40,095 nt of DNA, taken from IMG/VR virus record IMGVR_UViG_3300009159_000132, positions 1-40,095 of that record; one strand, given 5' to 3'. The position numbers were made by a program, and so were the translations under genes. Numbering within the stretch: position 1 is the stretch's first letter; each line of letters opens with the position of its first letter. Below, piece by piece: positions 1,036-40,095 of this stretch. The notes under the pieces are model-generated. The model saw only the letters and a list, made by a program, of their open reading frames with translations, ran no database searches and had not been told where the DNA came from. Origin of the DNA: a virus.

Positions 1036-1237
1036 CGTCATCTCCAGTGTCTGATAGATTAAATACAAATTCATTCGCTCTGTCGTCAAAGACTACAGAA
1101 ACTTGTTGACTAGAGTAATCTTTCTCAAAGTAACTGACAGGAATCCTATTGCTATCATAGTCAGTCATGAAAGACACAACTCCCGCAAGAAGCAGTGCCA
1201 CGTTGTCATAATTAGCCTCAACCTTAGGCTCGTTCAT
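1025..1237 (-). CDS. small acidic protein of unknown function
   Basis: This 70-codon gene lies between the DNA polymerase and the MazG-like gene. Its ATG overlaps the polymerase stop in an ATGA arrangement, and AAGGAG lies just upstream, inside the end of the polymerase gene. Both support real, coupled translation. The protein is acidic and ends in a run of aspartate and glutamate (DTGDDDES). It has a predicted helical N-terminal half and no motif I recognise. Its position suggests a replication accessory role, but no function is assigned. Confidence 0.7.
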   Translation of the reverse strand: MNEPKVEANYDNVALLLAGVVSFMTDYDSNRIPVSYFEKDYSSQQVSVVFDDRANEFVFNLSDTGDDDES

Positions 1238-4200
1238 AATATCTCCTTAATAAAGTTTGTTCCATCCTCTAACTTTCCAATTACCGGCTCACAAATTAGA
1301 CCCGCCCGCATCTTACCAAGGGCTTTGCTATAGATCTTGGGGAATGCAATGGCTCGCTTTAACTTCTTATCAGCATCAGACATAATAATGTGAGCCATCA
1401 TCTTATTCTGCTTAGTCCTATATGGAGTAAAATCAATCACCCCATACTCACCCGCTCCAGCGGGCAGAGAATCTGCGTGTAGATATCGAACAAATGGATC
1501 ATCCTTCTTATCCACTACATCCTCTATATTAACATATCTGTGAATTCTATTATCTCCTACTAGGAAGAAATACATGTTGCCAGTTTCAATCTGGCTATTC
1601 TCATTATGGAAAATACCAATCGATCCCGTGTCATCTACTAATTCCACTCTTGCCCAGCCATTCCCACGCTTGATTGACTTAACCATAGCAAACATGATAT
1701 AGCATCCCTGTTCCTCAAACTCATCCAATGGGTCAATCTGCGCCCTAATGTGTGGGGTTATTCCCTTTACATCAAACTTAGGAATGTTTAGGTATTCATA
1801 TAGATTCTCTGACTCTTCCCCAGTACGAGGATTATCATCAAACGCCGCCGCGCCAATCTTATTTAATGCAGCCACGGCCCTTGAATTAATCCCGCTACTC
1901 TTAGTCTTAGAAACTTCTACCAGATGCTCATAGTTTTTGAATGGCCTCGTATCAATAATCTTATTGCCAATGTTATCAGAGATAAACTTAATATTGGCAA
2001 GGCCAAATCGAATAGCATGACCCTGAATGCTAAAATCAATCTCCGATTCATTCACATGAGGAAGAAGAATCCTAATGCCAAGCCTCTTAGCCTCTAAAAG
2101 ATAGTCAGTCCTAGCATCCTTATCCCCCTCATTCTTTAACAGTGCGAACATAAACTCAGTCGGGTAGTAATGCTTGAGCCATGCTGTCCAGTATGAAAGC
2201 ATGGAATACGCAACAGCGTGTGATCGGTTAAACGAGTATCCCGCGTGTGCCTCAAAGTCGTGCCATAGTTGTTCCGCAACCTCTGCCGAGACATTCTTAG
2301 TTGCGCCTGCGACAAACTGAGCCTTGAACTTATCAAATTCATGCACATCCTTCTTTTTACCAATAATCTTACGGATCTTGTCTGCGTCTGACCATGACAT
2401 TCCAGCCAAGTTTACGCACGCCTGCATAACCTGTTCCTGATAAATGACCACTCCATATGTTTTTTCTAGGAATGGCCTCATTACTGGGTGGACATATTCT
2501 GTGACCTCTGTGCCCTTCTTACGGGCTATATACTTGGCACCCACAGTGTTCATGGCACCCGGTCGAACCAATGCATTAGATGCAGCAAGATCCTCAAAAT
2601 TATCTACGCCCATCTTCATCAGAAGATTAGTATAGGGAGTTGCCTCTGCCTGAAATACCCCCTTCGTAAATCCCAAAGTAAGGTCTAAATAAACCTTGGG
2701 ATCGTCCAAAGAGATATCCGAAAGAACAATCTTCTTGCCTGTCCTAGATTCAATAACCTTAATGGTATTAGAAATAACGGAAAGAGTCTTAAGTCCAAGC
2801 GCATCAATCTTAATCAAACCAATATCTGCCGCCTCATCCATGTCATAAGCAACAACAGGAATCCTACCAGTCACAGAATCAGAAGGATCCTTACGAGTTT
2901 CAATAGGAGCATAATTCCTGATAGGCTCCTTGGCTACAACAATACCAGCAGCGTGCATTCCACTACCACGAATTCTTCCCCGCAGGCTTGATGCTAGTTT
3001 AAGTACTTCAGGATATTTCTTGCGGAACTCCTCTGTATTGGGAGAGTTCTCGTATTCCTCAAACTTTTCGATACTCTTTAGAGCCTTGTTTACCTCATGA
3101 AGAGGAATCATAAAGACTCTTGCAGCGTCACGAATTACGCCCTTATCCTTGAAGAATTGATAAGTTGAGATAGAAGCAACATTCTTATACTTCTTCCTAA
3201 GGTATTCCTTAACCTCACCCCGCCTAGAATCTTCGAAGTCGGTGTCAATATCTGGAAAGTCACTACGCTCAATATTAATAAACCTACCGAATAGAAGGTC
3301 ATACTTAATTGGATCGACCTCTGTGATACCCAGTAGGTAGCATACAAGCGATCCTGCCGCTGAACCACGACCGGGACCAACGAGAATATCATTATCCTTA
3401 GACCAATTAATCATATCAGCAACCACTAGGAAGTAGGGAGCAAAACTCTTCTGCTTAATAACATCAAGTTCCTCCTCCAGACGATCCATGTATAACTTCT
3501 CATCGTCAATCTTACGAGACTTCCAACCTTCTAGGCAGAGTTCACGCAGTTTATCATTAGAACTACGCTTAGACACTGGCAATAGATTGACATTCTGAAC
3601 GTAGTCATAGTCACCAATCTGGTCAACAATATGCAGAGTATTCTCATACACATCGCTTCTCGTAATTCCCTGAGCCTCAAGGTGGGAAGTAATTTCAGCG
3701 CGTGACTGAATGTATACATCAATGTCCTTGAAACTAATCGGACGGTCTGGATATAGGTAGTCTAGGCGCTCAAAGATATCAGACATGTGGCGAGACTTCT
3801 CAAAGTCTGCCTCCTTGTTGGCATTAGGCTTGGTAGAAAGGATTAGCAATGCTTCCTCTACCGACCTCTGATCCTCAGTCGCAAAATGGCAGTCTGATGT
3901 AACAATAGGTCCAACGCTGTACTTATCTGATAGTTCTAGTAGTTTATGATTCAACGATGCAGGGTTATGCGGCTGAATCTCAACATAGAAATCCTTATCA
4001 AAACGATTCTTAAACCAATGCATCAGAGCATCGGCTCGCTCATAGTTTTCCTTTTCGATAGCCTTAGCAATCAAACCATTCATGCATCCAGATAGAACAA
4101 TAAGCCCATCACCATAGTCACTCAATAGTTCAAGGTCAATACGAGGCTTACGATAGAATCCTTCTGTCCATGCCATCTCTGAAAGATGGTGAAGATTCTT

Positions 4201-4509
4201 CAACCCCGCCTGATCCTTGGCAAGCAGAATGATGTGATTAAAAACCTGAGTGTTATCATCACGGCTCTTAATGTCACGACGGTCAAAGCGATCAGTCTCA
4301 GAAATGTAAGCCTCTACGCCTAGGATTGGCTTCATGCCAAGTTCCTTGGCCGCACGCTGCATATCACGGTGACTAGATAGAGTCCCATGATCGGTTACTG
4401 AAACTGCTGTCTGCCCAAGTTCCTTAGCAGCACTTAGTAGTTCGTGCGGGGAACAGAGTCCATCTAGGATTGAGTATTGTGAATGACAGTGTAGATGTGC
4501 GAAGTCCAT
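1234..4509 (-). CDS. dnaE: DNA polymerase III alpha subunit (C-family, DnaE-type)
   Basis: This 1091-residue C-family replicative polymerase is close to the bacterial DnaE length of about 1160. The N-terminal PHP domain starts at once with HLHCH (residues 5-9) and keeps TDHG, GVEAY, SGC and TSDCH. Its metal ligands therefore appear intact, and such PHP domains proofread in actinobacterial DnaE1. The polymerase core has GPGRGSAAGS (about 379-388), the palm aspartates in PDIDTDF (D420 and D422) and the third in GLIKIDALGL (D569), matching E. coli D401/D403/D555. YQEQVM and SHAVAYSMLSYWTAWLKHYYP follow the DnaE pattern. A helix-hairpin-helix region and an OB-like domain lie in the last 250 residues. 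I chose ATG 4509, preceded by AGAAGGATT, over a start 11 codons further out. A GC-rich hairpin separates it from ssb. Confidence 0.97.
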   Translation of the reverse strand: MDFAHLHCHSQYSILDGLCSPHELLSAAKELGQTAVSVTDHGTLSSHRDMQRAAKELGMKPILGVEAYISETDRFDRRDIKSRDDNTQVFNHIILLAKDQAGLKNLHHLSEMAWTEGFYRKPRIDLELLSDYGDGLIVLSGCMNGLIAKAIEKENYERADALMHWFKNRFDKDFYVEIQPHNPASLNHKLLELSDKYSVGPIVTSDCHFATEDQRSVEEALLILSTKPNANKEADFEKSRHMSDIFERLDYLYPDRPISFKDIDVYIQSRAEITSHLEAQGITRSDVYENTLHIVDQIGDYDYVQNVNLLPVSKRSSNDKLRELCLEGWKSRKIDDEKLYMDRLEEELDVIKQKSFAPYFLVVADMINWSKDNDILVGPGRGSAAGSLVCYLLGITEVDPIKYDLLFGRFINIERSDFPDIDTDFEDSRRGEVKEYLRKKYKNVASISTYQFFKDKGVIRDAARVFMIPLHEVNKALKSIEKFEEYENSPNTEEFRKKYPEVLKLASSLRGRIRGSGMHAAGIVVAKEPIRNYAPIETRKDPSDSVTGRIPVVAYDMDEAADIGLIKIDALGLKTLSVISNTIKVIESRTGKKIVLSDISLDDPKVYLDLTLGFTKGVFQAEATPYTNLLMKMGVDNFEDLAASNALVRPGAMNTVGAKYIARKKGTEVTEYVHPVMRPFLEKTYGVVIYQEQVMQACVNLAGMSWSDADKIRKIIGKKKDVHEFDKFKAQFVAGATKNVSAEVAEQLWHDFEAHAGYSFNRSHAVAYSMLSYWTAWLKHYYPTEFMFALLKNEGDKDARTDYLLEAKRLGIRILLPHVNESEIDFSIQGHAIRFGLANIKFISDNIGNKIIDTRPFKNYEHLVEVSKTKSSGINSRAVAALNKIGAAAFDDNPRTGEESENLYEYLNIPKFDVKGITPHIRAQIDPLDEFEEQGCYIMFAMVKSIKRGNGWARVELVDDTGSIGIFHNENSQIETGNMYFFLVGDNRIHRYVNIEDVVDKKDDPFVRYLHADSLPAGAGEYGVIDFTPYRTKQNKMMAHIIMSDADKKLKRAIAFPKIYSKALGKMRAGLICEPVIGKLEDGTNFIKEIL

Positions 4510-4531
4510 AATCCTTCTTTCAAATTGTAGA

Positions 4532-4554
4532 AGCGGGGGCAAAATGCCCCCGCT
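4532..4554 (-). terminator. GC-rich hairpin between ssb and dnaE
   Basis: A perfect 9-base-pair inverted repeat (AGCGGGGGC / GCCCCCGCT) with a 5-base loop lies between the ssb stop and the polymerase start. On the transcribed strand the right arm is followed by TTCTACAATTTG, which is not a good uridine tract. It may be a partial terminator or attenuator that lowers polymerase expression relative to SSB, or an mRNA-stabilising hairpin. The structure is certain from sequence; the function is inferred. Confidence 0.55.
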
Positions 4555-4575
4555 CCACTATAACACGGTGACGGT

Positions 4576-5247
4576 TTACCACTCAGCAGATGATGCCGCA
4601 ACTGATGGTGAGTGATCTGAGTCTGAATAAGCATTGCCTGTGTAGAATGCCTCTTGCTCTGCATAAGGAATATCACAGACAGCAATCTTCTCTAGATCAT
4701 GGAGTTCATACTTCTCCCCAGACTTAACCTCTGAAGTTGGTAGTGGGATGATACTGTAATTAGTATCAGTCTTTTCTCCTGTACGCTTTAGACGCCACAC
4801 AACATCCGTAATGCTGCCAGTCTCACCAGCATACTGGATAACCTCTGGGGTTGCAGACTTGGGGCCTGAACCCTGAGATAGAATGGCTACATATGGGTCT
4901 TCCGTGCCATCATCAACCAAGACGTTAATGTATAGACGACTACGACCCTTCCAGCCAGCCTTCATATCCTTACGGTGCTGCTCACAACCATAGCAACGGC
5001 CTTGATCATCAGCACTACAAAGTGCCTTACGACGGTAATCAACTGGATTAGTATGCTCTACAGCGATAAATCCTGCTCCGTAAGCAGAATCATAGTTCTT
5101 TGAGTCAGGATCAAGTTCCTGAAGGAAGCGGATCTTCACGCTTTGACCGTCGCCTAGTTTTACCCAACGACCCTTTTGTCTATCACTACTGTAACTTGGC
5201 CTATCAAGAATGTTATTCATTGCATTCAAACCTTTAACGATACCCAT
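4576..5247 (-). CDS. ssb: single-stranded DNA-binding protein with zinc site
   Basis: This 223-residue protein resembles phage gp32-like single-stranded DNA-binding proteins. The clearest mark is a C-x7-C-x2-C-x2-H cluster (C77, C85, C88, H91) inside what should be an OB-fold, comparable to the structural zinc in T4 gp32. Around it are basic and aromatic residues suited to DNA binding (KGRWVKLGDGQSVKIRF at about 25-41). The C-terminus is flexible and serine/aspartate-rich, ending in AEW, as expected for a tail that recruits partner proteins. It sits between primase and polymerase and has its own extended -10 promoter overlapping the primase stop, fitting the high copy number SSBs need. AGGAG lies 11 bases before the chosen ATG; ATG at codon 10 is an alternative start. 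Confidence 0.8.
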   Translation of the reverse strand: MGIVKGLNAMNNILDRPSYSSDRQKGRWVKLGDGQSVKIRFLQELDPDSKNYDSAYGAGFIAVEHTNPVDYRRKALCSADDQGRCYGCEQHRKDMKAGWKGRSRLYINVLVDDGTEDPYVAILSQGSGPKSATPEVIQYAGETGSITDVVWRLKRTGEKTDTNYSIIPLPTSEVKSGEKYELHDLEKIAVCDIPYAEQEAFYTGNAYSDSDHSPSVAASSAEW

Positions 5248-5297
5248 AATTTATTCTTCTCCTAATGTATTGGGCTATATGTATGCCCTGTTCTATT

Positions 5298-5306
5298 ATT
5301 ATACCA
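5298..5306 (-). promoter_or_regulatory. extended -10 promoter for ssb
   Basis: The minus strand reads TGGTATAAT, a perfect extended -10 box (TATAAT at 5303-5298). The hexamer 17 bases upstream is TTCCAT, so there is no good -35. It overlaps the last codon and stop of the primase gene and gives ssb its own start point with a leader of about 45 bases. Confidence 0.7.
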
Positions 5307-5307
5307 C

Positions 5308-6342
5308 TTAATACAGTCCAATGGAAGTGTATTCTACATGACTTACAGCATTTTTTATACAAGAAGTAATCTCTTGATCCGTCATCTCCCCCGCGTCCTT
5401 TGCTCCGTGAGGATAAACAGTATTACGATCATACATCGCCCAAGTAACTTCTTTATTCTTTAAGGAGGAGGCTATTGTCATTCCTAAGTCCCTGCCGGGA
5501 TTGTGTCCCTTACAATCACTAGGATAACATTTACGACAGTTATTGACAATATAGTCTGACTTATTATCGAAATCGGTCATGATAATTATTGACTGAAAGT
5601 TCCTATTAAGATTGCTTAGATTATCTGCTGAAATATACCCACCAAGAGTAGCAACAACATTCGGGAACCCGGCCTGATGAATTCTAATCGCATCAAAGGC
5701 CGATTCGCAGACAATCGCTGTTCCAGATGAACGCCTAGCCCTATTAATGTTAAACATAGTTTTACTTCTTGGTAGGCCACGAGAATTTTTGAATGACTTA
5801 TCTTTAATTCCGCGACCAACTAGACCGACTGGAATGCCGTCAGGACTATGAACCGGAACAATAATCATGTCCTGCTGCCCTGAGTATCCTAACTTAAAGT
5901 AATTAATTGATTCCTTATTGATACCTCTCTGCACTAGATAGGCTTGAGCGGTATCATTTGTTAGCATTTGATCATACATCTGATCTAACTTATTCTGAGG
6001 GAACTCCTGCCATTCAGGCTTATCCATTAGAACTGCCGCCAACTCATCCTCAAACGATACTTCAGTCTCAGTCTTTAAAGATTGGATAAGCCTCATAGCC
6101 TCAAAATCATTACGATGAGAGATATTCTTTACTAGTTCCAAGACCGTACCAGATGCATCACACGATGGGTTGAAGCATAAATACAAACCCTTCGTATGAC
6201 TTACTGAAAATGACGGGGTGTTGCGGTTACCATGAAATGGGCATAGGCACAGAAAATCATTATATGTTTCTGAGTTTACGTCTATGCCTAGTTCCCTGAG
6301 TATTCTTCTCACATGACTCTGTGTGTAGATATCAGTTAACAT
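5308..6342 (-). CDS. DnaG-type DNA primase
   Basis: This 344-residue primase makes RNA primers for replication. The N-terminal CHC2-type zinc-binding domain is seen as CPFH (C34, H37) with CFNPSC (C56, C61). A central core follows, then a TOPRIM domain with the catalytic glutamate in VCESAFDAI (E213) and the DxD pair in MTDFDN (D257, D259). It is much shorter than bacterial DnaG (about 580-600) and lacks a C-terminal helicase-binding domain. An unusual second Cys/His cluster, CRKCYPSDCKGH, is inserted after the TOPRIM DxD. I chose ATG 6342, preceded by TTAGGAAAAAA; the frame extends 35 codons further but that region overlaps the upstream gene. It follows the helicase and a small unknown gene. 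Confidence 0.92.
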   Translation of the reverse strand: MLTDIYTQSHVRRILRELGIDVNSETYNDFLCLCPFHGNRNTPSFSVSHTKGLYLCFNPSCDASGTVLELVKNISHRNDFEAMRLIQSLKTETEVSFEDELAAVLMDKPEWQEFPQNKLDQMYDQMLTNDTAQAYLVQRGINKESINYFKLGYSGQQDMIIVPVHSPDGIPVGLVGRGIKDKSFKNSRGLPRSKTMFNINRARRSSGTAIVCESAFDAIRIHQAGFPNVVATLGGYISADNLSNLNRNFQSIIIMTDFDNKSDYIVNNCRKCYPSDCKGHNPGRDLGMTIASSLKNKEVTWAMYDRNTVYPHGAKDAGEMTDQEITSCIKNAVSHVEYTSIGLY

Positions 6343-6349
6343 TTTTTTC

Positions 6350-6637
6350 CTAAGTGTTAGATCGTGGGATAAGCCTCTGCCCTGCATAACCATCATATAG
6401 CATTGCTTGTTTTGTTCCAACAAAAACGCCATGCAAATATATTTCAAAATTGTAATAATTTTTTATTTCATCATATGAGATATAAAATAGTGGATCTAAG
6501 TCTAACACTGGTATATATCCAGAATCTCTCATGCCATTAATAATAGTTTTTTCGTATTGAAATCTTAACCTTGGCAGATCAGAATCATCAGCAATGATGC
6601 CCTCTAAGCCGAATTTCTTTATTTTTTTATTTTGCAT
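6350..6637 (-). CDS. small protein of unknown function between helicase and primase
   Basis: This 95-codon gene encodes a basic protein beginning MQNKKIKKFGLEG. It has a central hydrophobic and acidic segment (PVLDLDPLFYISYDE) and looks like a compact alpha/beta fold. I chose ATG 6637, which has AAGGA seven bases upstream, over a TTG nine codons out. A strong promoter lies just ahead of it, overlapping the end of the helicase gene. The position between helicase and primase suggests a replication accessory role. I do not recognise a family. Confidence 0.7.
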   Translation of the reverse strand: MQNKKIKKFGLEGIIADDSDLPRLRFQYEKTIINGMRDSGYIPVLDLDPLFYISYDEIKNYYNFEIYLHGVFVGTKQAMLYDGYAGQRLIPRSNT

Positions 6638-6660
6638 GAGTACATCCTTAACTTGATACA

Positions 6661-6688
6661 ATTATACCAAATTACAGAGGATTGTCAT
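6661..6688 (-). promoter_or_regulatory. promoter with -35 and extended -10 ahead of the primase segment
   Basis: The minus strand has ATGACA (6688-6683), a 16-base spacer and TATAAT (6666-6661) preceded by TGG, so it has both a near-consensus -35 (5 of 6) and an extended -10. This is the best promoter in the window. It lies across the end of the helicase gene and should drive the 95-codon gene and primase. Confidence 0.75.
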
Positions 6689-7895
6689 ATATTTCTTTCA
6701 CGATACCCCGGTCAATATCCCAGTCAAGGTAAAAACCAAAGTCATTGCCGTGCCGATTCTTACGACTAACAATTTCAATGATATTAGTATCTGGAGTCCT
6801 ATGGATAGCAACAGCCATATCAGCATCATATTCGATTGCCTTTGACCATGCCACCTGATTAAGCATAGGAGGATTATCGTGATCAGAAACATCATCAGCC
6901 GTAGCCGCCGTAATATCAATTACCGGAATGTTATTCCTAACCGCAAGCAACTTAAACTCACGGGAAATATTACGGTTACGCTCAACCTCGCTATTAGACT
7001 TCTTAGTGTCATTAAACAGTTGATGATAGTCGCAAATAACTAGATCTGGACGATGCTGATCAATCTTACCCTGAACTGTCTGCGGAGTAACATCTCCCAT
7101 ACCCTCATTGGATACAAGGATAAACCCGCGCTTGTCAACAAACTTCTTAGACGCCCAGTGGTCGAAGTCATCGATGTTAATATCTCCACGGGAGAATTGG
7201 CTAGCACGGAATATACCGGAGCCTAGCATGGTGTAGATTCGGTCACGCATGTTCTCTGGACTCATCTCAAGGGAGACAATCATTGGCTTGAACCCTGCTT
7301 CCCATGCCTTACACGCAAGATAGGATGTGAACCACGTCTTTCCCCTACCCGGCCAACCAATAGCAACAATAAGGTGACCGGGAGCCATGCCAGTGTGATA
7401 GGCAAGGTCCATAGCCTTAAAACCAGTAGGAATGCCGGGTGAACCACCCATCTCAGCAGCGCGGTTACGAATTGCTTCAATGTGCTTCTCCGCTGCCTCC
7501 CAATCCGTTACGTCAACGTCACGAACGTTAGAGGTATAGCGAGATAGTTTTGACATTGATGACTGGATATCTGAAAGAACACGGGCTGCGGCGTCAGTCT
7601 TTAGATTGTTACCAGCCTTAAGAAGAGCATTGCGGATTTGAGCAGAAAGATATTCATCCTTCAACTTATCAAGATAATAGGCAGTTTCACCATTCGCTGT
7701 TACTGGATCAAAATCCTTGTACTTTTCTACAAGAACAGAAACATCTGGGACACCCTTAAACTTATAGTAGTAAGACTTTAGTCCCTCCCAAACATCACGG
7801 TGTGAGATAAAGATTTCATCTACATCATCAGCAAGAAGAACAGCGATATCCTTGTTCTGACAAACAGCACTAATTACTGCTGATTCGGTGTTCAT
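6672..7895 (-). CDS. DnaB-type replicative helicase
   Basis: This 407-residue hexameric helicase unwinds DNA at the fork. The N-terminal helical domain (about 1-130) is followed by a RecA-type ATPase domain. That domain has Walker A GWPGRGKT at 180-187, the catalytic glutamate in SLEMS near 210, and Walker B LVICDYHQL near 285-293. The segment AWSKAIEYDADMAVAIHR (about 349-366) and the following KNRHG fit the DnaB motifs for sensor and arginine contacts. It is slightly shorter than bacterial DnaB (about 470), losing part of the N-terminal domain. The start ATG overlaps the previous stop (ATGA) and follows GAAGAGGT. Three small genes lie just upstream, one of which could encode a loader. Confidence 0.94.
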   Translation of the reverse strand: MNTESAVISAVCQNKDIAVLLADDVDEIFISHRDVWEGLKSYYYKFKGVPDVSVLVEKYKDFDPVTANGETAYYLDKLKDEYLSAQIRNALLKAGNNLKTDAAARVLSDIQSSMSKLSRYTSNVRDVDVTDWEAAEKHIEAIRNRAAEMGGSPGIPTGFKAMDLAYHTGMAPGHLIVAIGWPGRGKTWFTSYLACKAWEAGFKPMIVSLEMSPENMRDRIYTMLGSGIFRASQFSRGDINIDDFDHWASKKFVDKRGFILVSNEGMGDVTPQTVQGKIDQHRPDLVICDYHQLFNDTKKSNSEVERNRNISREFKLLAVRNNIPVIDITAATADDVSDHDNPPMLNQVAWSKAIEYDADMAVAIHRTPDTNIIEIVSRKNRHGNDFGFYLDWDIDRGIVKEIYDNPL

Positions 7896-31549: not shown

Positions 31550-32653
31550 TCAGACAGCAGTGGATGAAGTCCACTTGGTTGCAGTTGTTGGACTGCTAAG
31601 AGCACCGGAGGTGCTAGTTGTTGATACGGAGGCACTTGTAGTTCCACCGATTAAGATGTTCTTTACAACAACGTGAGCATCAAGATTCTCAATTGCACAT
31701 CCTACACGAATGTAGAGGGTGTACTCAATTGTGTCCTTCTTGGGCTGGAACGTACGGTAAACTGTGATATCACGCTTAATACCCACAATGAAGTTCTGGG
31801 GGAATGTAAGGTGTAATTCACCTAATGTTGCTGTTTCTGGCATTAACGGAACGTTAATAACGGGAATTCCAAACGCGAATGGAGTGACCGAACCGGGTCC
31901 ACCATCGTTTGCAGCGACATCTCCACGGATAACTCCTGAAGAGATATCAAATGGAGTACCGAAGTTTGCTGTGTTTGTATTGATTGCAAGGTTGTATAGA
32001 TAATCCTGCACTAAGTTTGAACTTGTGAAGAATCTCAACTGATTACGACGTTGCTTGTATCTACGGGGTAGAGCCTTGATAGCCTGATTGAATACAGACA
32101 TACCTAGACCGCTACTGTAAGCGTCTACAACGTTAGCGCCAGCACGGGCCAAAACAGAGAACCCGCTGAATGCGCTAAGAAGTGGATCACCACTTGCAGC
32201 ATCACCAGCAAGAAGCAAATCTTCAATGTCGTTACCAGCCTGAGTTGCCATCATTCTTGCGATGTGGTCTTCCAGATCAGTACCTTCAATGTTGTCCTCA
32301 AGTGTCTCGCTGGAAAGTTCCCAGTCAAGACGTAGTTTCTTTGTAGTTAAAGAAACTTTTGAGAAGTAGGCTTCTGCATTATAGATTGGATCGGCTGAAG
32401 TCTGACCAGTAAAATCTCTTGGACGTGCTTGGTTAGCAGCGCGGAGAATTCTTTGACCAACGTTCACCTTATCAATATCAACTGTGTCTGACTTCATGCG
32501 GATTGTGCGAGCAGCCTTTGTAAGCACTGTAGCGTCCCACATGTAGTCAATGAATCGGTTAGACTGATCTGGGTATAGTAGACCATTGTTGTTACTGGTA
32601 CTGTTACCTAGATCAGTTGTATCAATTACTTTTTGTAGTAATTCATTACTCAT
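31550..32653 (-). CDS. major capsid protein, HK97 fold
   Basis: This 367-residue protein has the HK97-type pattern. There is an N-terminal arm, then RFIDYMWDATVLTKAARTIRMKSDTVDIDKVNVG. The P-domain region ELSSETLEDNIEGTDLEDHIARMMATQAGNDIEDLLLAGD follows, then an A-domain with RRNQLRFFTSSNLVQDYLYNLA and a late beta-rich region ending in HVVVKNILIGG. It follows the protease/scaffold gene with a promoter (TATAAT) overlapping that gene's end and is followed by a strong terminator. The start is ATG 32653, with AGGTGA eight bases upstream; a GTG four codons earlier has worse spacing. It should assemble as pentamers and hexamers in the icosahedral head. Confidence 0.94.
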   Translation of the reverse strand: MSNELLQKVIDTTDLGNSTSNNNGLLYPDQSNRFIDYMWDATVLTKAARTIRMKSDTVDIDKVNVGQRILRAANQARPRDFTGQTSADPIYNAEAYFSKVSLTTKKLRLDWELSSETLEDNIEGTDLEDHIARMMATQAGNDIEDLLLAGDAASGDPLLSAFSGFSVLARAGANVVDAYSSGLGMSVFNQAIKALPRRYKQRRNQLRFFTSSNLVQDYLYNLAINTNTANFGTPFDISSGVIRGDVAANDGGPGSVTPFAFGIPVINVPLMPETATLGELHLTFPQNFIVGIKRDITVYRTFQPKKDTIEYTLYIRVGCAIENLDAHVVVKNILIGGTTSASVSTTSTSGALSSPTTATKWTSSTAV

Positions 32654-32682
32654 TTTTATTTTCACCTACCTTTCAATTTTTT

Positions 32683-32688
32683 ATTATA
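32683..32688 (-). promoter_or_regulatory. -10 promoter candidate for the capsid gene
   Basis: TATAAT occurs on the minus strand 30 bases ahead of the capsid start. It lacks the TG of the extended form and has no good -35, so it is weaker than the others. Its position overlaps the last codons of the protease gene. Confidence 0.45.
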
Positions 32689-33190
32689 GGTCTTGGACAT
32701 TGAGGAAGTGTCCTTTCCAAATGCTTTTTTGAAGTGTAACTTCTTCTGATGACCCATCAAAGTCATTAGATTTTTTTACCGCAGTAGATGATTCATAAGC
32801 ATTCATTCTACTGTGTAAGTCTTCGATTGATTTTTTCATTTCTCCATAGGAATCGTGCATGTTACTAATTTTACCACGCATTTCGTTAACAATTTCTTCA
32901 ACTGTTGAAACGTTATTTGTAGCCTTAGCAATACCAGCATCAATTTTATCTGTCACGACGGCTTTTAGGTCGTCTAGCATTTTGGCGAAATCAAATTCTT
33001 CCGTCACCGCAGGATCAGCAGACTTCTCAACAACATCTTCTTCTACTGTTTCTTCAACAGTTTCATCAGCAGAATCTGACTCTTCTTGAACGTCTCCTGT
33101 CTCATCGGCAACTTCTTCAGTAGCAATTTCTTCTACATCATCAACACTCTTAACGAGTTCTGTTGATTCTACTGAGAGTTCTTCAGACAT
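32684..33190 (-). CDS. capsid scaffolding protein from internal start
   Basis: A nested gene of 168 codons is in frame within the 3' half of the protease gene. Its ATG at 33190 is preceded by AAAGGAGGT with a six-base spacer, one of the most complete ribosome-binding sites in the window, in the middle of a coding region. The product is acidic, coiled and begins MSEELSVES. The lambda C/Nu3 pair is the known parallel. It should be made in excess over the full protease-scaffold fusion. Confidence 0.8.
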   Translation of the reverse strand: MSEELSVESTELVKSVDDVEEIATEEVADETGDVQEESDSADETVEETVEEDVVEKSADPAVTEEFDFAKMLDDLKAVVTDKIDAGIAKATNNVSTVEEIVNEMRGKISNMHDSYGEMKKSIEDLHSRMNAYESSTAVKKSNDFDGSSEEVTLQKSIWKGHFLNVQDL

Positions 33191-33940
33191 GTCTGTACCT
33201 CCTTTAGTTATATTTTTGTTTAAGTACGAATCTACTTTATCTTTAATGTCAATAGATTTTGTACTTTCAATATTTTCTATCCATCCGATATTTTCCATAG
33301 ACTTGTTGCATACTGTGCAAGAGGAATCCTCAGAATCTGAGGAGACAGCAATCTCATCAGTTGCACACCAGAAAACATTTTCAGTTTGAATATCCATAGC
33401 GGAACCTTTATATATAGGTCCATCTACACCTTTTTGAATTGAAAAAATATTGGCTAGGGGATTGGCGGGGTTATCCACCAAACTTAATTCATAAAGTTCA
33501 TAGTCACTAACTTTTCTAATAGACTTGTTTAATTCTTTATTAAACTCATCTTCGGAGTCAACAATGTTTCCGCCAATAGAGAAACCAGTAAGGGTGCCAT
33601 CAAGAACTTTCTCCCAAGTGTTCTCAGCGCCCTTTGAGATGTATGTAGTTACGAATACGCCCTTATAGGTTTCTCCGCTTTTACTATCATAGAAAGATTG
33701 TTGTTTAAAAGATAATACTTTACCTACTGCCACTGGCTGATGCATCTCACGAAGGTTTCCACGAAAACGATCAAAGGCTTTCTGAGAAGCCTCTGATGTA
33801 ATTATGTCTCCATGCTTGTCAATATTATCTAATGACGCAAACCCAGACACGGTTCTATTTTCCTTATCTACCTTAGAAAAGGGAACGGAAATATGCAACC
33901 TGTCGCCATCGTTGTGCCATTCGGCCTTTTTAATATTCAT
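32684..33940 (-). CDS. prohead maturation protease fused to scaffold
   Basis: The N-terminal half (about 1-170) matches the phage prohead protease (peptidase U35/S78-like) pattern, with catalytic His in LREMHQPV (H67) and Ser in TGFSIGG (S121), and a conserved acidic stretch near YELYELSLVDNPANP. A linker with C192 and CTVC (C208, C211) follows. The C-terminal half is acidic and coiled (VDDVEEIATEEVADETG...), typical of a scaffold or delta domain. An internal ATG at codon 251 with AAAGGAGGT upstream probably makes the scaffold alone. The 418 residues combine processing and scaffold roles in one gene. The start ATG 33940 has no Shine-Dalgarno and may have a very short leader. Confidence 0.85.
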   Translation of the reverse strand: MNIKKAEWHNDGDRLHISVPFSKVDKENRTVSGFASLDNIDKHGDIITSEASQKAFDRFRGNLREMHQPVAVGKVLSFKQQSFYDSKSGETYKGVFVTTYISKGAENTWEKVLDGTLTGFSIGGNIVDSEDEFNKELNKSIRKVSDYELYELSLVDNPANPLANIFSIQKGVDGPIYKGSAMDIQTENVFWCATDEIAVSSDSEDSSCTVCNKSMENIGWIENIESTKSIDIKDKVDSYLNKNITKGGTDMSEELSVESTELVKSVDDVEEIATEEVADETGDVQEESDSADETVEETVEEDVVEKSADPAVTEEFDFAKMLDDLKAVVTDKIDAGIAKATNNVSTVEEIVNEMRGKISNMHDSYGEMKKSIEDLHSRMNAYESSTAVKKSNDFDGSSEEVTLQKSIWKGHFLNVQDL

Positions 33941-35943: not shown

Positions 35944-38388
35944 CTAACTTGTATAAACTTGCCAGTTCTTGTTCAATAATGTTACTGAATCTGGAAGGCA
36001 TTGTACATTTAAATATTTATTGTCGTCATCAGAAACTGAAACTACCCTTCTTCCAAATACTTGTCCATATCTATTCTTTGCATAACTTGCTGTGTATGGA
36101 AATACTGATACTTTATCAAAAGAATGGGAGAACGATGCCGTTCCATCAGATTTTGAAAATAAATAAAAGGCAGAGGTATCAGAAACTGGAGTTGTAAGAG
36201 AAGATTGTATAAAATAATGTTGTCTTGACTTAATAGTTGTCGATCCAGAAACTGCATCTTCCCCATTTACACTTGCTGTCATTCCAGAAAAATTTAATAA
36301 ATATGTATTGGATGCAGCGCTATATATGAGTGCCATGCTAGCGGAAGGACTATTGTCTATGATAAATTGTGTAGTTGTTGATAATGTATCAGATATACCA
36401 ATTAGTAAATCTATTTGACCAATGTTGTCAAAGTCCGTATCTGATTTTGAAACAGAAATTATGCTCTGTGGAATTTGTAAAAACCCAATATTATTTTGTT
36501 TGTAAACATTTAATAGTCTTTCTGGATGATTAACTACTCCACTAGATGTTGTTAGTAATGCTGGGTATGATCCAGCAGAATAACTAGCGGCGGTGAAGTT
36601 ATAAAGATATAACCTATTTATATTAGTATTCTTGATGGAATCAAAAATACTATTATTATAATACCCAGCCATTGAAGCACTAATTGCTAAATAGGAAGAA
36701 GATGATGGAATATCAATAATAGATTCATTATTGATTGATGAGGATGCTCCATTAATATACATTGTATATTTTATGTTATCTGAGTCATAAGCCATAAAAT
36801 AATTTTTAGTTTTTTCTGGAATTGGTAATGCAATCCAAGCCTCAGCCTCGCGGTACTGATAAGGATTCCAAACAATAGATCCTGTAGAATTTTTTGTTGG
36901 AGTAGTCAATCCAGCATAAACATATTGTGGACTATTAGCATATGTTTCATTAAAATCTAGTTGTTGATTTCCTCCAGCAACAATGTATCCATTTGAAGCC
37001 GCATAGTATCTATTGAATAAGTATACTTTGGCGTAATCGGTTGTTATCTTATCTGAGAATGTATAAGAAAATGAACCACTTCCATCAGCAAGTTCCGCTA
37101 ATACTGTTGATCCAGAAAAACTAATATTTACTGTTTTCGGTGGCTTTTGGCTTACTGATGCTGATATTGATGTCAGAATAGTGGATGATCCAGTCCCTAA
37201 AATTATTTTAGACGAAGCGGAATCTATTGCTATATAAAAGTCTCCTACGCTGCTATTCTCTACAAACAATAAAGAATTTTCAGAAGTAAACTTTCCATTT
37301 CCAACCCCACCAAATCTTATTGATATTCCATCATTAACAAAATTATTTGTATAATCATTTGACAATAAACTAAATCCACCAACAGATGCTACAGAATAAC
37401 TTCCAGAATTATTTACTACCCCTAAAGAGTTATTATCTAATGAAAATGCATTAAAATTTGGACTTGTTTTAATTTTAATATATGGATCAGTATAAGTATT
37501 ATATAGATCTGTTCCATAAAAGTCTTGCGTCACTTGATCATTTCTAGCAATTTTTTGATTAAATGTAACTATTTCATTTAATAATGGAGAACCTATTTTA
37601 GATATATATTTATCAAAATTTCCTACATCAAGGAGTGCGTAATATCTACTTGCAATGTTCTGTTCACTTAAAGCATATGAATAAAATGAAATCATTGAAA
37701 CTAAAAGATTTTGAGTATTATCACTACATGAAAATTCGGCTACAGTCCTTCCCGCAATTTTGGGGGAAAAGAATATTTTTTTAGATAATTGATCTATTAA
37801 TGTATCAGCCCTAACCATATTTATGTACATTTCTGGTCTTCCTGATTTAAAGTTTATTACAATATGTTTAGATTCTTTTATTGGATATCCAGAAACTGAT
37901 GATCTATATATAATGTATCCATCTGAAGAATAAACATTTAAATAAAATTCATTAGTTACAGAATTATAAGATAGTCCAACATTTGCTTGAGAATTGTATA
38001 TTCCAAACCTAGCAAAATCTTGATTTGAAGTTCTATCATAGTTCTTAGATAATAAAAATTCAACTGCAAACGGTAATCTTTCATCACCCTGAGAGAATCT
38101 TCCCACTCCAACAGTATTTACACTTAAAGCATTATTTTCAGTAATCGATATTTTATTACTTGAATTTATATTAAATGTATAATTTTCAGACGCTAAAGCA
38201 AAAAAGGGGATTTGTTTTGAGTAACTTGCGCCGACAGCCAATGTAGCCTTAAGATAATCTCTGTTAGTTAAATCATCAATCGAATTAGAGGCGGGAATAT
38301 ATGGACCAAAAACTGCTGTAGGAGTATGACTTAAAACAAGATCCTCATACGTCTTTGATCCATAGATAGTAGTAGATGTTACTGGCAT
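35944..38388 (-). CDS. large beta-rich virion surface protein, lectin-like
   Basis: This 814-residue protein is rich in Ser, Asn and Tyr and looks all-beta. Two or more concanavalin/LamG-type jelly rolls are suggested by FARFGIYNSQANVGLSYNSVTNEFYLNVYSSDG, with SKHIVINFKSGRPEMYINMV, and by a second region near NYFMAYDSDNIKYTMYINGASSSINN. A glycan-binding or decorating role on the head or tail is likely. It lies upstream of the portal instead of with the tail genes. It follows TGATATAAT and GGCGGG. No catalytic residues are apparent. Confidence 0.72.
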   Translation of the reverse strand: MPVTSTTIYGSKTYEDLVLSHTPTAVFGPYIPASNSIDDLTNRDYLKATLAVGASYSKQIPFFALASENYTFNINSSNKISITENNALSVNTVGVGRFSQGDERLPFAVEFLLSKNYDRTSNQDFARFGIYNSQANVGLSYNSVTNEFYLNVYSSDGYIIYRSSVSGYPIKESKHIVINFKSGRPEMYINMVRADTLIDQLSKKIFFSPKIAGRTVAEFSCSDNTQNLLVSMISFYSYALSEQNIASRYYALLDVGNFDKYISKIGSPLLNEIVTFNQKIARNDQVTQDFYGTDLYNTYTDPYIKIKTSPNFNAFSLDNNSLGVVNNSGSYSVASVGGFSLLSNDYTNNFVNDGISIRFGGVGNGKFTSENSLLFVENSSVGDFYIAIDSASSKIILGTGSSTILTSISASVSQKPPKTVNISFSGSTVLAELADGSGSFSYTFSDKITTDYAKVYLFNRYYAASNGYIVAGGNQQLDFNETYANSPQYVYAGLTTPTKNSTGSIVWNPYQYREAEAWIALPIPEKTKNYFMAYDSDNIKYTMYINGASSSINNESIIDIPSSSSYLAISASMAGYYNNSIFDSIKNTNINRLYLYNFTAASYSAGSYPALLTTSSGVVNHPERLLNVYKQNNIGFLQIPQSIISVSKSDTDFDNIGQIDLLIGISDTLSTTTQFIIDNSPSASMALIYSAASNTYLLNFSGMTASVNGEDAVSGSTTIKSRQHYFIQSSLTTPVSDTSAFYLFSKSDGTASFSHSFDKVSVFPYTASYAKNRYGQVFGRRVVSVSDDDNKYLNVQCLPDSVTLLNKNWQVYTS

Positions 38389-38561: not shown

Positions 38562-39272
38562 TTATATTGGAGAAACTATAAGATTATATGAGAAGGAAGT
38601 AGGGGACGACCCTGCGGTTGTAATTACCGTTAATGATGTGCCTGAACGAGACATAGAGTGGGAAGGAGTGGTAATAAGACCATATATATAATCAGAGCCT
38701 CCAGAAAGAAATGTTTGGTCCAACCCCACAAAATACGTCCACCCTCCTTTATTAATCCATGTTATTGCAGAAGAAGTACCAGTAGATGTAATTGTACCAG
38801 TAACATTAGCCTCAACCTTAAAACATAAATTATTAGTAAATCTATCTTTCCAGTTACTTGATTGGGTGCCGGGGTATCCAGAAGTTCCGCTGCTTGTATA
38901 TGTCCAATTTACTCCATGCATTTGTATACCGGGAGTACGACCACTACCTAGTGGAGGGCTTGGCGTATTGCCAACTGCACTTATATTTAAAGATAAAGTT
39001 GTAGAGGTTACTGTATCATTTGCTGGTATGGCACTTGTATCATATCTAACATGCCATTGAGTTGAGTAATATGTATCTGGATACGGTGGATATTTATTTA
39101 TTTGACCACCGGGGTTGACCCAAAGATAGGGAACGTTATAATTACTATTAATATCTGCGGCTTGTGCTACTGCTGTCGGTCCAAGGCTTGCTTCAGAAAT
39201 TTCTGCTGTATCATAAAGAATATCATTATAATTTGTAGTATTTTTATCAAGATTACAAACATAGGTAGGCAT
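38562..39272 (-). CDS. probable virion protein, unknown
   Basis: This 236-residue beta-rich protein (NVPYLWVNPGGQINKYPPYPDTYYSTQWHVRYDTSAIPANDTVTSTTLSLNISA) resembles the DNRLRE-type or carbohydrate-binding-like beta sandwiches found in virion and surface proteins. The later part has TSSAITWINKGGWTYFVGLDQ and a Ser-rich C-terminus. Its ATG overlaps the upstream stop. I do not recognise a specific family. Confidence 0.65.
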   Translation of the reverse strand: MPTYVCNLDKNTTNYNDILYDTAEISEASLGPTAVAQAADINSNYNVPYLWVNPGGQINKYPPYPDTYYSTQWHVRYDTSAIPANDTVTSTTLSLNISAVGNTPSPPLGSGRTPGIQMHGVNWTYTSSGTSGYPGTQSSNWKDRFTNNLCFKVEANVTGTITSTGTSSAITWINKGGWTYFVGLDQTFLSGGSDYIYGLITTPSHSMSRSGTSLTVITTAGSSPTSFSYNLIVSPI

Positions 39273-39547
39273 TAGATAGTCGCCACGCTACGAACAAGAT
39301 TAGAAACCAATTTATGAGTTGAAGAAATTGGATCGCCATTATGATAAAATCCTGACCAATGCAGCGGGAAATCTAAAAATACTGGTACACCAAAATACGT
39401 TGCTTCTGCATAATCAATTTTAAAAGTAGTATCATAACAATCAAAACCGGCAATAGTTGCAACCACCGCTCCATCTCTAAACGTATGTGGAGAACCTAAA
39501 GAATTCATTGCCACTACCATATCAACTACATCTTGCTCTACACTCAT
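39272..39547 (-). CDS. 91-residue protein of unknown function
   Basis: This small protein (VVDMVVAMNSLGSPHTFRDGAVVATIAGFDCYDTTFKIDYAEATYFGVPVFLD) looks alpha/beta, with a beta-hairpin and a few conserved-looking aromatics. It is in tight overlap with both neighbours: its ATG overlaps the propeller gene's stop and its stop overlaps the next ATG. Function is unknown; it may assist the DUF4915-like protein or be a virion component. Confidence 0.65.
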   Translation of the reverse strand: MSVEQDVVDMVVAMNSLGSPHTFRDGAVVATIAGFDCYDTTFKIDYAEATYFGVPVFLDFPLHWSGFYHNGDPISSTHKLVSNLVRSVATI

Positions 39548-40095
39548 TATGTTAAAGCCTTATCAGTAATATTAATGTCAAAGATCTCTTGAACATCTAA
39601 AGGCTCAAAATCTTCTTGCTGACCAGTATTTTTATTTATTATTGCAATTCCCGGTTGTGCCATCGGGTCAGCCGTAATTTCTGGAAAAGCAGTCAATTTT
39701 CCTTGAGATATCCCCACAAGAACATAATCACCTATTTGTAAAATTCCGCGTGACCATCCAGATAATTCGGTGACAACAGTATAATTACTGTCTCCCGGCA
39801 ACCATTTGCATAACTGAGAGTTTCCAGAATTACAAAACCATAAAACATTATCTATAATTTTTGGAGAATGTGGAAAGAATAAATTATTTAAAACAATATT
39901 ATTATTTGTTACATCTATTATTAATCCTTTTGAAATACGAGCCTCATCCCTCCAACCCTGAGGAATATCAGATAATCCAAGAACACTTACATATTTTGGA
40001 TAACCATCTTGAAGTGCAACACCATTAATCCATGAACGAGCATCAAATGTTTCTGGAGTAACATTGGGAATAGGCCAGTATATTTCATCTATTCC
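39547..40095 (-). CDS. DUF4915/TIGR03032-like beta-propeller (5' end outside window)
   Basis: The last 183 residues of a longer protein are visible, open at the right edge. Repeats with the propeller pattern are clear: SWINGVALQDGYPKYVSVLGLSD, QGWRDEARISKGLIIDV, FFPHSPK, VLWFCNSGNSQLCKW, WSRGILQIGDYVLVGIS and PGIAIINKNTGQ, ending in VQEIFDI. I recognise these as the family motifs (NG-x-A-x-x-x-G-x-P-x-Y-V-x-x-L-G, MPHSPR, LNSGTG, RGL...VGLS, GIAV...TG, EIFDV). The family is mainly bacterial, without a well-defined function. Here it lies upstream of virion genes with no glycosyltransferase visible in the window. The start is not visible. Confidence 0.8.
   Translation of the reverse strand, partial: GIDEIYWPIPNVTPETFDARSWINGVALQDGYPKYVSVLGLSDIPQGWRDEARISKGLIIDVTNNNIVLNNLFFPHSPKIIDNVLWFCNSGNSQLCKWLPGDSNYTVVTELSGWSRGILQIGDYVLVGISQGKLTAFPEITADPMAQPGIAIINKNTGQQEDFEPLDVQEIFDINITDKALT

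Follow-up and report, generated by a model that had tools for sequence, protein, structure and literature searches.

Beta-propellers are found in the receptor-binding proteins of the phages phi11 and PRD1 and possibly in a phiKZ baseplate protein (PMC4901313). A precedent for modification of a surface protein by a linked enzyme is HMW1C, a GT41 enzyme that acts in the cytoplasm to glycosylate a giant adhesin (PMC3983070). Here we describe a phage gene of DUF4915/TIGR03032, a family without an assigned function; in the open-access literature, we found no paper naming DUF4915 or TIGR03032. The gene lies at the end of the window, that is, the whole stretch of DNA that was analysed, an entire IMG/VR record of 40,095 bp classed as linear. 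The new points are a phage cassette containing this gene and a family-wide link of DUF4915 to protein modification.

A divergent DUF4915 gene in a late phage operon

The genes of the late operon are encoded on the minus strand in the order DUF4915, 91-aa protein, 236-aa fibre-like protein, 814-aa protein, a small protein, portal, protease and major capsid protein. The main features are as follows (other contigs and genomes are designated by L numbers).

39547..40095, minus strand: DUF4915 beta-propeller, C-terminal 182 aa (PF16261 E=4.3e-36; 59% identity to the 287-aa protein of L141)
39272..39547, minus strand: 91-aa partner protein, its start overlapping the DUF4915 stop (TAATG); homologues 37-47% identical
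38562..39272, minus strand: fibre-like protein of 236 aa with 27% Ser+Thr, encoded by the third cassette gene and without a match in Pfam or PHROG
35944..38388, minus strand: virion-type protein of 814 aa, encoded between cassette and portal gene; homologues at the equivalent place in L003, L063 and L064
33984..35597, minus strand: portal protein (PF04860 E=2.8e-35; 76-77% identity to L064/L050, 53% to Coruscant)
32684..33940, minus strand: head maturation protease (phrog_9427 E=4e-124; 45% identity to Coruscant)
31550..32665, minus strand: major capsid protein (phrog_1623 E=2.5e-87; 54% identity to Streptomyces phage capsid proteins)

Since the DUF4915 stop overlaps the following start codon and the operon continues into the portal, protease and capsid genes, the DUF4915 gene belongs to the phage, and the description of the operon in an earlier note, as one leading to virion genes, was borne out. 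The window portal, protease and capsid resemble those of Stanwilliamsviridae phages of Streptomyces (45-54% identity), related portals are encoded by about 500 viral contig stretches, and the host is probably an actinobacterium. Coruscant (Stanwilliamsviridae) has portal, protease and capsid genes in equal order and a LamG-domain protein (Laminin_G_3) upstream of the portal gene. This protein is the positional counterpart of the window's 814-aa protein, which has no Pfam match of its own. In contrast to the window, Coruscant encodes a LysM/amidase protein at the site equivalent to the cassette, followed by the LamG-domain protein and the portal. The window phage may be of freshwater type, judged from the context of the sample number; its G+C content is 32-43%, and no tRNA genes were found in the window. 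The phage has its own genes for a RecA-like protein, a DNA polymerase III alpha subunit, a primase and a DnaB-like helicase, which lie past the tail genes in the downstream direction, on the minus strand (1-696 and 1234-7895).

The DUF4915 frame is open at its 5' end and runs off the contig end, and by comparison with the L141 relative about 105 N-terminal residues are absent. The motifs from which the earlier note had recognised the family (FPHSPK, CNSGNS, WSRGILQIGDYVLVGIS and EIFDI) are all present in this frame, and membership in DUF4915 was confirmed at 125 bits, far over the gathering score of 35. The profile was not matched end to end: the window protein, truncated by the contig end, covers positions 134-306 of 316, and in full-length phage members (L064, 130 bits; L141, 150; L142, 119; L050, 108) the match starts only at about position 97 and covers about 205 residues. 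TIGR03032 is the best NCBIfam match of the phage proteins (E down to 8e-42, in L141), but the window protein scored only 121 bits (E=5e-35) against a curated cut-off of 251.5; a cyanobacterial control reached 421 bits. Because the four full-length phage homologues scored 96-143 bits as well, the shortfall is not due to truncation alone, and the assignment to TIGR03032 has to be given up in its curated sense. The window gene is placed in a divergent, phage-specific branch of DUF4915, outside strict TIGR03032.

An AlphaFold2 model of the L141 protein, built with 76 sequences, reached a pLDDT of 94.9 and a pTM of 0.92, and this confident fold of a 59%-identical relative agrees with the beta-propeller proposed in the earlier note. 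The model matched 1227 PDB chains at E<=0.001, with TM values of 0.6-0.68; designed six-bladed propellers, the Kelch domains of Keap1/KLHL3 and LRP propellers were the top matches, and sequence profiles gave only weak propeller matches against the PDB. The phage propeller is thus predicted to have, likely, six blades (TM about 0.6-0.68). In L141 numbering, phage members keep N129 (except L050), W153-R154, P180-H181-(S/T)182-P183 (PHSP reads PHTP in L142), R221-G222 and E275. They lack C126-H127 and the N-terminal STYQ, PMG and TGD motifs; the Cys-His of DRCHLNG is replaced by Ser/Ala-Trp in five phage members, and L229 retains the Cys and not the His. Given the loss of these invariant residues, function may have changed in the phage branch.

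A three-gene cassette in phages with different head genes

Single-protein searches for relatives of the propeller among phages and viral contigs gave no match, nor did searches of 50,697 phage records with the window and L064 propellers. Alignments were required, and alignment-based searches identified phage relatives in L050, L064, L140/L141 (near-identical contigs from two samples), L142 and L229. DUF4915, a gene for a protein of about 90 aa and a fibre-like gene are consecutive in the window, L064, L141, L142 and L229, with the homologues of the 91-aa protein directly after DUF4915; the ~90-aa gene is missing from a sixth phage that carries the propeller. Among viral contigs, the ~90-aa protein was found adjoining DUF4915 only; an AlphaFold2 model of the L064 homologue (pLDDT 90) gave no significant fold match. 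The third gene occupies the equivalent place in the four other contigs and encodes a protein with a similar N-terminus (M-A/P-T-Y), a common sandwich-like motif, 24-35% Ser+Thr and, over the whole set, a length of 236-1032 aa. In L141 an adjacent gene encodes a Gp80 fibre protein, and in L064 the neighbours include collagen-like and head-decoration-like proteins.

Their portals, 76-77% identical to that of the window, place L050 and L064 in its clade; the L141 capsid is Gordonia-phage-like (42%), and L142 has a different gene order. A cassette of propeller, ~90-aa protein and variable, Ser/Thr-rich fibre-like protein recurs across phages with different head genes, which is new here. None of 24 records with a relative of the window's head protease contained DUF4915, and therefore the cassette is sporadic in the clade. 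The window propeller is nearer to that of L141 (59%), whose head genes are unrelated, than to that of L064 (54%) from its own clade, suggesting that the cassette has been exchanged between phages; the tree leaves the relevant fork open. The six phage proteins group together in this tree, which holds 82 sequences (support 88); four of the six are starred (96).

Propeller identity among the window, L064, L141 and L142 is 51-59% (35-41% with L229); in cellular genomes the best full-span match reaches 38% (up to 43% over shorter segments). The ~90-aa proteins are 37-54% identical among the phage copies, and the fibre-like genes gave only partial, low-scoring matches of 24-40%. The propeller is therefore constant and the fibre variable, given these identities and the spread in fibre length. 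Such a pattern, as read from the alignments, is the reverse of what is predicted for a receptor-binding tip, and it leans slightly toward a conserved accessory role on the neighbouring fibre over a variable adhesin tip.

The phage contigs yielded no modifying enzyme. Sulfotransferases were absent from every phage record tested, all of which are fragments; GT2 was absent from the window and gave no match above threshold in any cassette contig, all likewise fragments, and L141 encodes a weak GT2-like protein two genes upstream of the propeller. A protein with an APS-kinase-like P-loop and an NMN-adenylyltransferase-like part is encoded directly upstream of the propeller in L142 (3940-4725) and L229 (4305-5126). 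The L141 phage has it at another site, and it is also present in several phages that are related to the window phage and lack DUF4915 in the sequence available (for example L146, 3749-4486). By sequence it looks NadR-like and may have a role in NAD metabolism; a link to sulfation through this gene is weakened by that likeness and by its frequency in related phages without DUF4915.

DUF4915 genes were also seen in other viral settings. A half-length DUF4915 (about 200 aa) is encoded by another phage (L059, 7863-8462, and L058), with a 1339-aa ORF directly after it and large structural-looking ORFs before it. In L057 (2066-3713), a viral contig of 16.5 kb that has a packaging-ATPase-like ORF and is possibly a tailless phage, a full cellular-type DUF4915 gene is followed by a glycine-rich fibre-like gene. 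L051 and L052, although flagged as viral, grouped with Roseobacteraceae or Paracoccaceae sequences and were set aside as probably bacterial or prophage-flanking.

Fusions and neighbours of cellular DUF4915 proteins

The cellular sample comprised 79 loci, from which 14 long or extended proteins were scanned for domains. DUF4915 was found in all 14, together with TPR (7), GT9-like (4), Sulfotransfer_3 (3), Asp_Arg_Hydrox (3), GNAT (2) and GT41 (1) domains; a 1901-aa protein of Acaryochloris has the order DUF4915-TPR-GT41. A hydroxylase, a sulfotransferase and DUF4915 are joined in one open frame in two genomes (L152 and L165) and also in L217, an actinobacterial lake MAG, and this Asp/Asn hydroxylase-sulfotransferase-DUF4915 three-domain protein is apparently undescribed so far. 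Actinobacterial genomes with DUF4915 proteins are L156, L216 and L217. A protein of Synechococcus phage S-SCSM1 annotated as "coatomer subunit alpha" (L061, 7812-8663) is a weak, distant relative of DUF4915 and sits inside a long sugar-nucleotide and glycosyltransferase cluster.

Some neighbours of the cellular genes are giant repeat adhesins and GT41-TPR proteins: among 60 immediate neighbours, we counted FG-GAP (8), GT41 (6), RTX (4), Big_9 (4), cadherin (3) and Calx-beta (2). Same-strand downstream genes encoded proteins of at least 900 aa in 15 of 42 cases but in only 7 of 327 among distant genes, for which Fisher's test gives P=5e-11. Within 10 kb of DUF4915 in 30 genomes, GT41 was observed 6 times (0.26 expected) and APS kinase 3 times (0.29 expected). 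In these statistics P-values serve as guides only, the loci being related and picked by similarity and the gene counts merged by eye. A simple hydropathy test, crude in that it also flags few of the giant neighbours, detected no signal-peptide-like N-terminus among 65 cellular members. The fusion of DUF4915 to several different protein modifiers, with giant adhesins adjacent, argues for a recogniser of client proteins, not for a single chemistry.

Possible roles of the phage propeller and comparison with known systems

Our preferred reading, to which we give nearly as much credence as doubt, is that the phage uses on its own fibre an intracellular propeller whose role is to recognise long surface proteins and aid their modification or assembly. 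We infer the cytosolic action, the fibre as client and the outcome: the propeller would act inside the infected cell and would recognise the nascent or assembling fibre encoded beside it. Together with the small partner, it would support either modification of the fibre, carried out by enzymes of the host or by phage enzymes that have escaped notice, or its folding and assembly, and the cellular relatives would appear to do likewise for giant surface adhesins. This reading is consistent with the presence of the cassette in five phage contigs of different lineages, with the better conservation of the propeller than of the fibre, and with the cellular fusions (TPR, GT41, GT9-like, sulfotransferase, hydroxylase, GNAT), the adhesin and GT41 neighbours and the 0/65 signal-peptide-like N-termini; HMW1C serves as its precedent (PMC3983070). 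Against it stand the lost invariant residues and the lack of a sulfotransferase or an above-threshold GT2 in the cassette contigs, which are fragments. The wider proposal that DUF4915 is a client-recognition propeller for cytosolic O-glycosylation, sulfation and hydroxylation of giant adhesins, of which phages carry a stripped-down, mobile version for their own fibres, we put forward with considerable reserve.

A virion component, that is, a structural or receptor-binding module that would join the 91-aa and fibre-like proteins in a head or tail fibre complex and bind a surface glycan, is the main rival, a reasonable though less than even prospect. The gene does lie among fibre genes, including those for Gp80 in L141 and the collagen-like and head-decoration-like proteins in L064, and propellers serve in the phage proteins named at the outset (PMC4901313). 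However, the propeller is the conserved gene and not the variable one, no phage copy is fused to fibre or trimerisation domains, and the fusion partners of the cellular relatives are cytosolic enzymes and not adhesins. An action on host surface polymers or on a host DUF4915-linked modification system, altering the surface of the infected cell, is unlikely: actinobacterial genomes do have DUF4915 proteins, and the distant S-SCSM1 protein lies in a sugar and glycosyltransferase cluster, but the phage gene belongs to the late virion operon, together with a fibre partner, rather than to the early genes, and its branch is strongly diverged from the cellular forms. That the gene, lying at the very end of the contig, is a host gene, an assembly error or contamination is highly improbable in view of the one-base overlap with the next phage gene, the propeller and partner in four other phage contigs and the closer identity of the phage copies to one another (51-59%) than to the best full-span cellular match (38%); the host insertion considered in the earlier note is likewise rejected through the cassette common to several phages.

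The links to GT41, sulfotransferase, hydroxylase and giant adhesins give DUF4915/TIGR03032 a concrete hypothesis, and the phage cassette shrinks the problem to three small co-encoded genes. The idea of the earlier note that a phage member could be a route to the function of the family is supported. If the reading of an intracellular, client-recognising propeller is true, a propeller module moving from phage to phage would modify or chaperone phage fibres.

Compared with Pfam DUF4915, the phage members share the conserved N, WR, PHSP, RG and E positions and differ in an N-terminal quarter unmatched by the profile and in the changed Cys-His of DRCHLNG, STYQ, PMG and TGD; from TIGR03032 they differ in their length of 270-291 aa and their scores (96-143 bits versus the cut-off of 251.5). 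With phi11 Gp45 and PRD1 P2 they have in common a beta-propeller fold in a phage, but those are five-bladed domains within larger virion proteins (PMC4901313), whereas the propeller described here is stand-alone, predicted to be six-bladed and of another family. The cellular DUF4915 loci resemble HMW1C/HMW1 in that a modifier gene is linked to a giant surface adhesin, with the difference that DUF4915 is no glycosyltransferase itself and is instead fused or adjacent to them.
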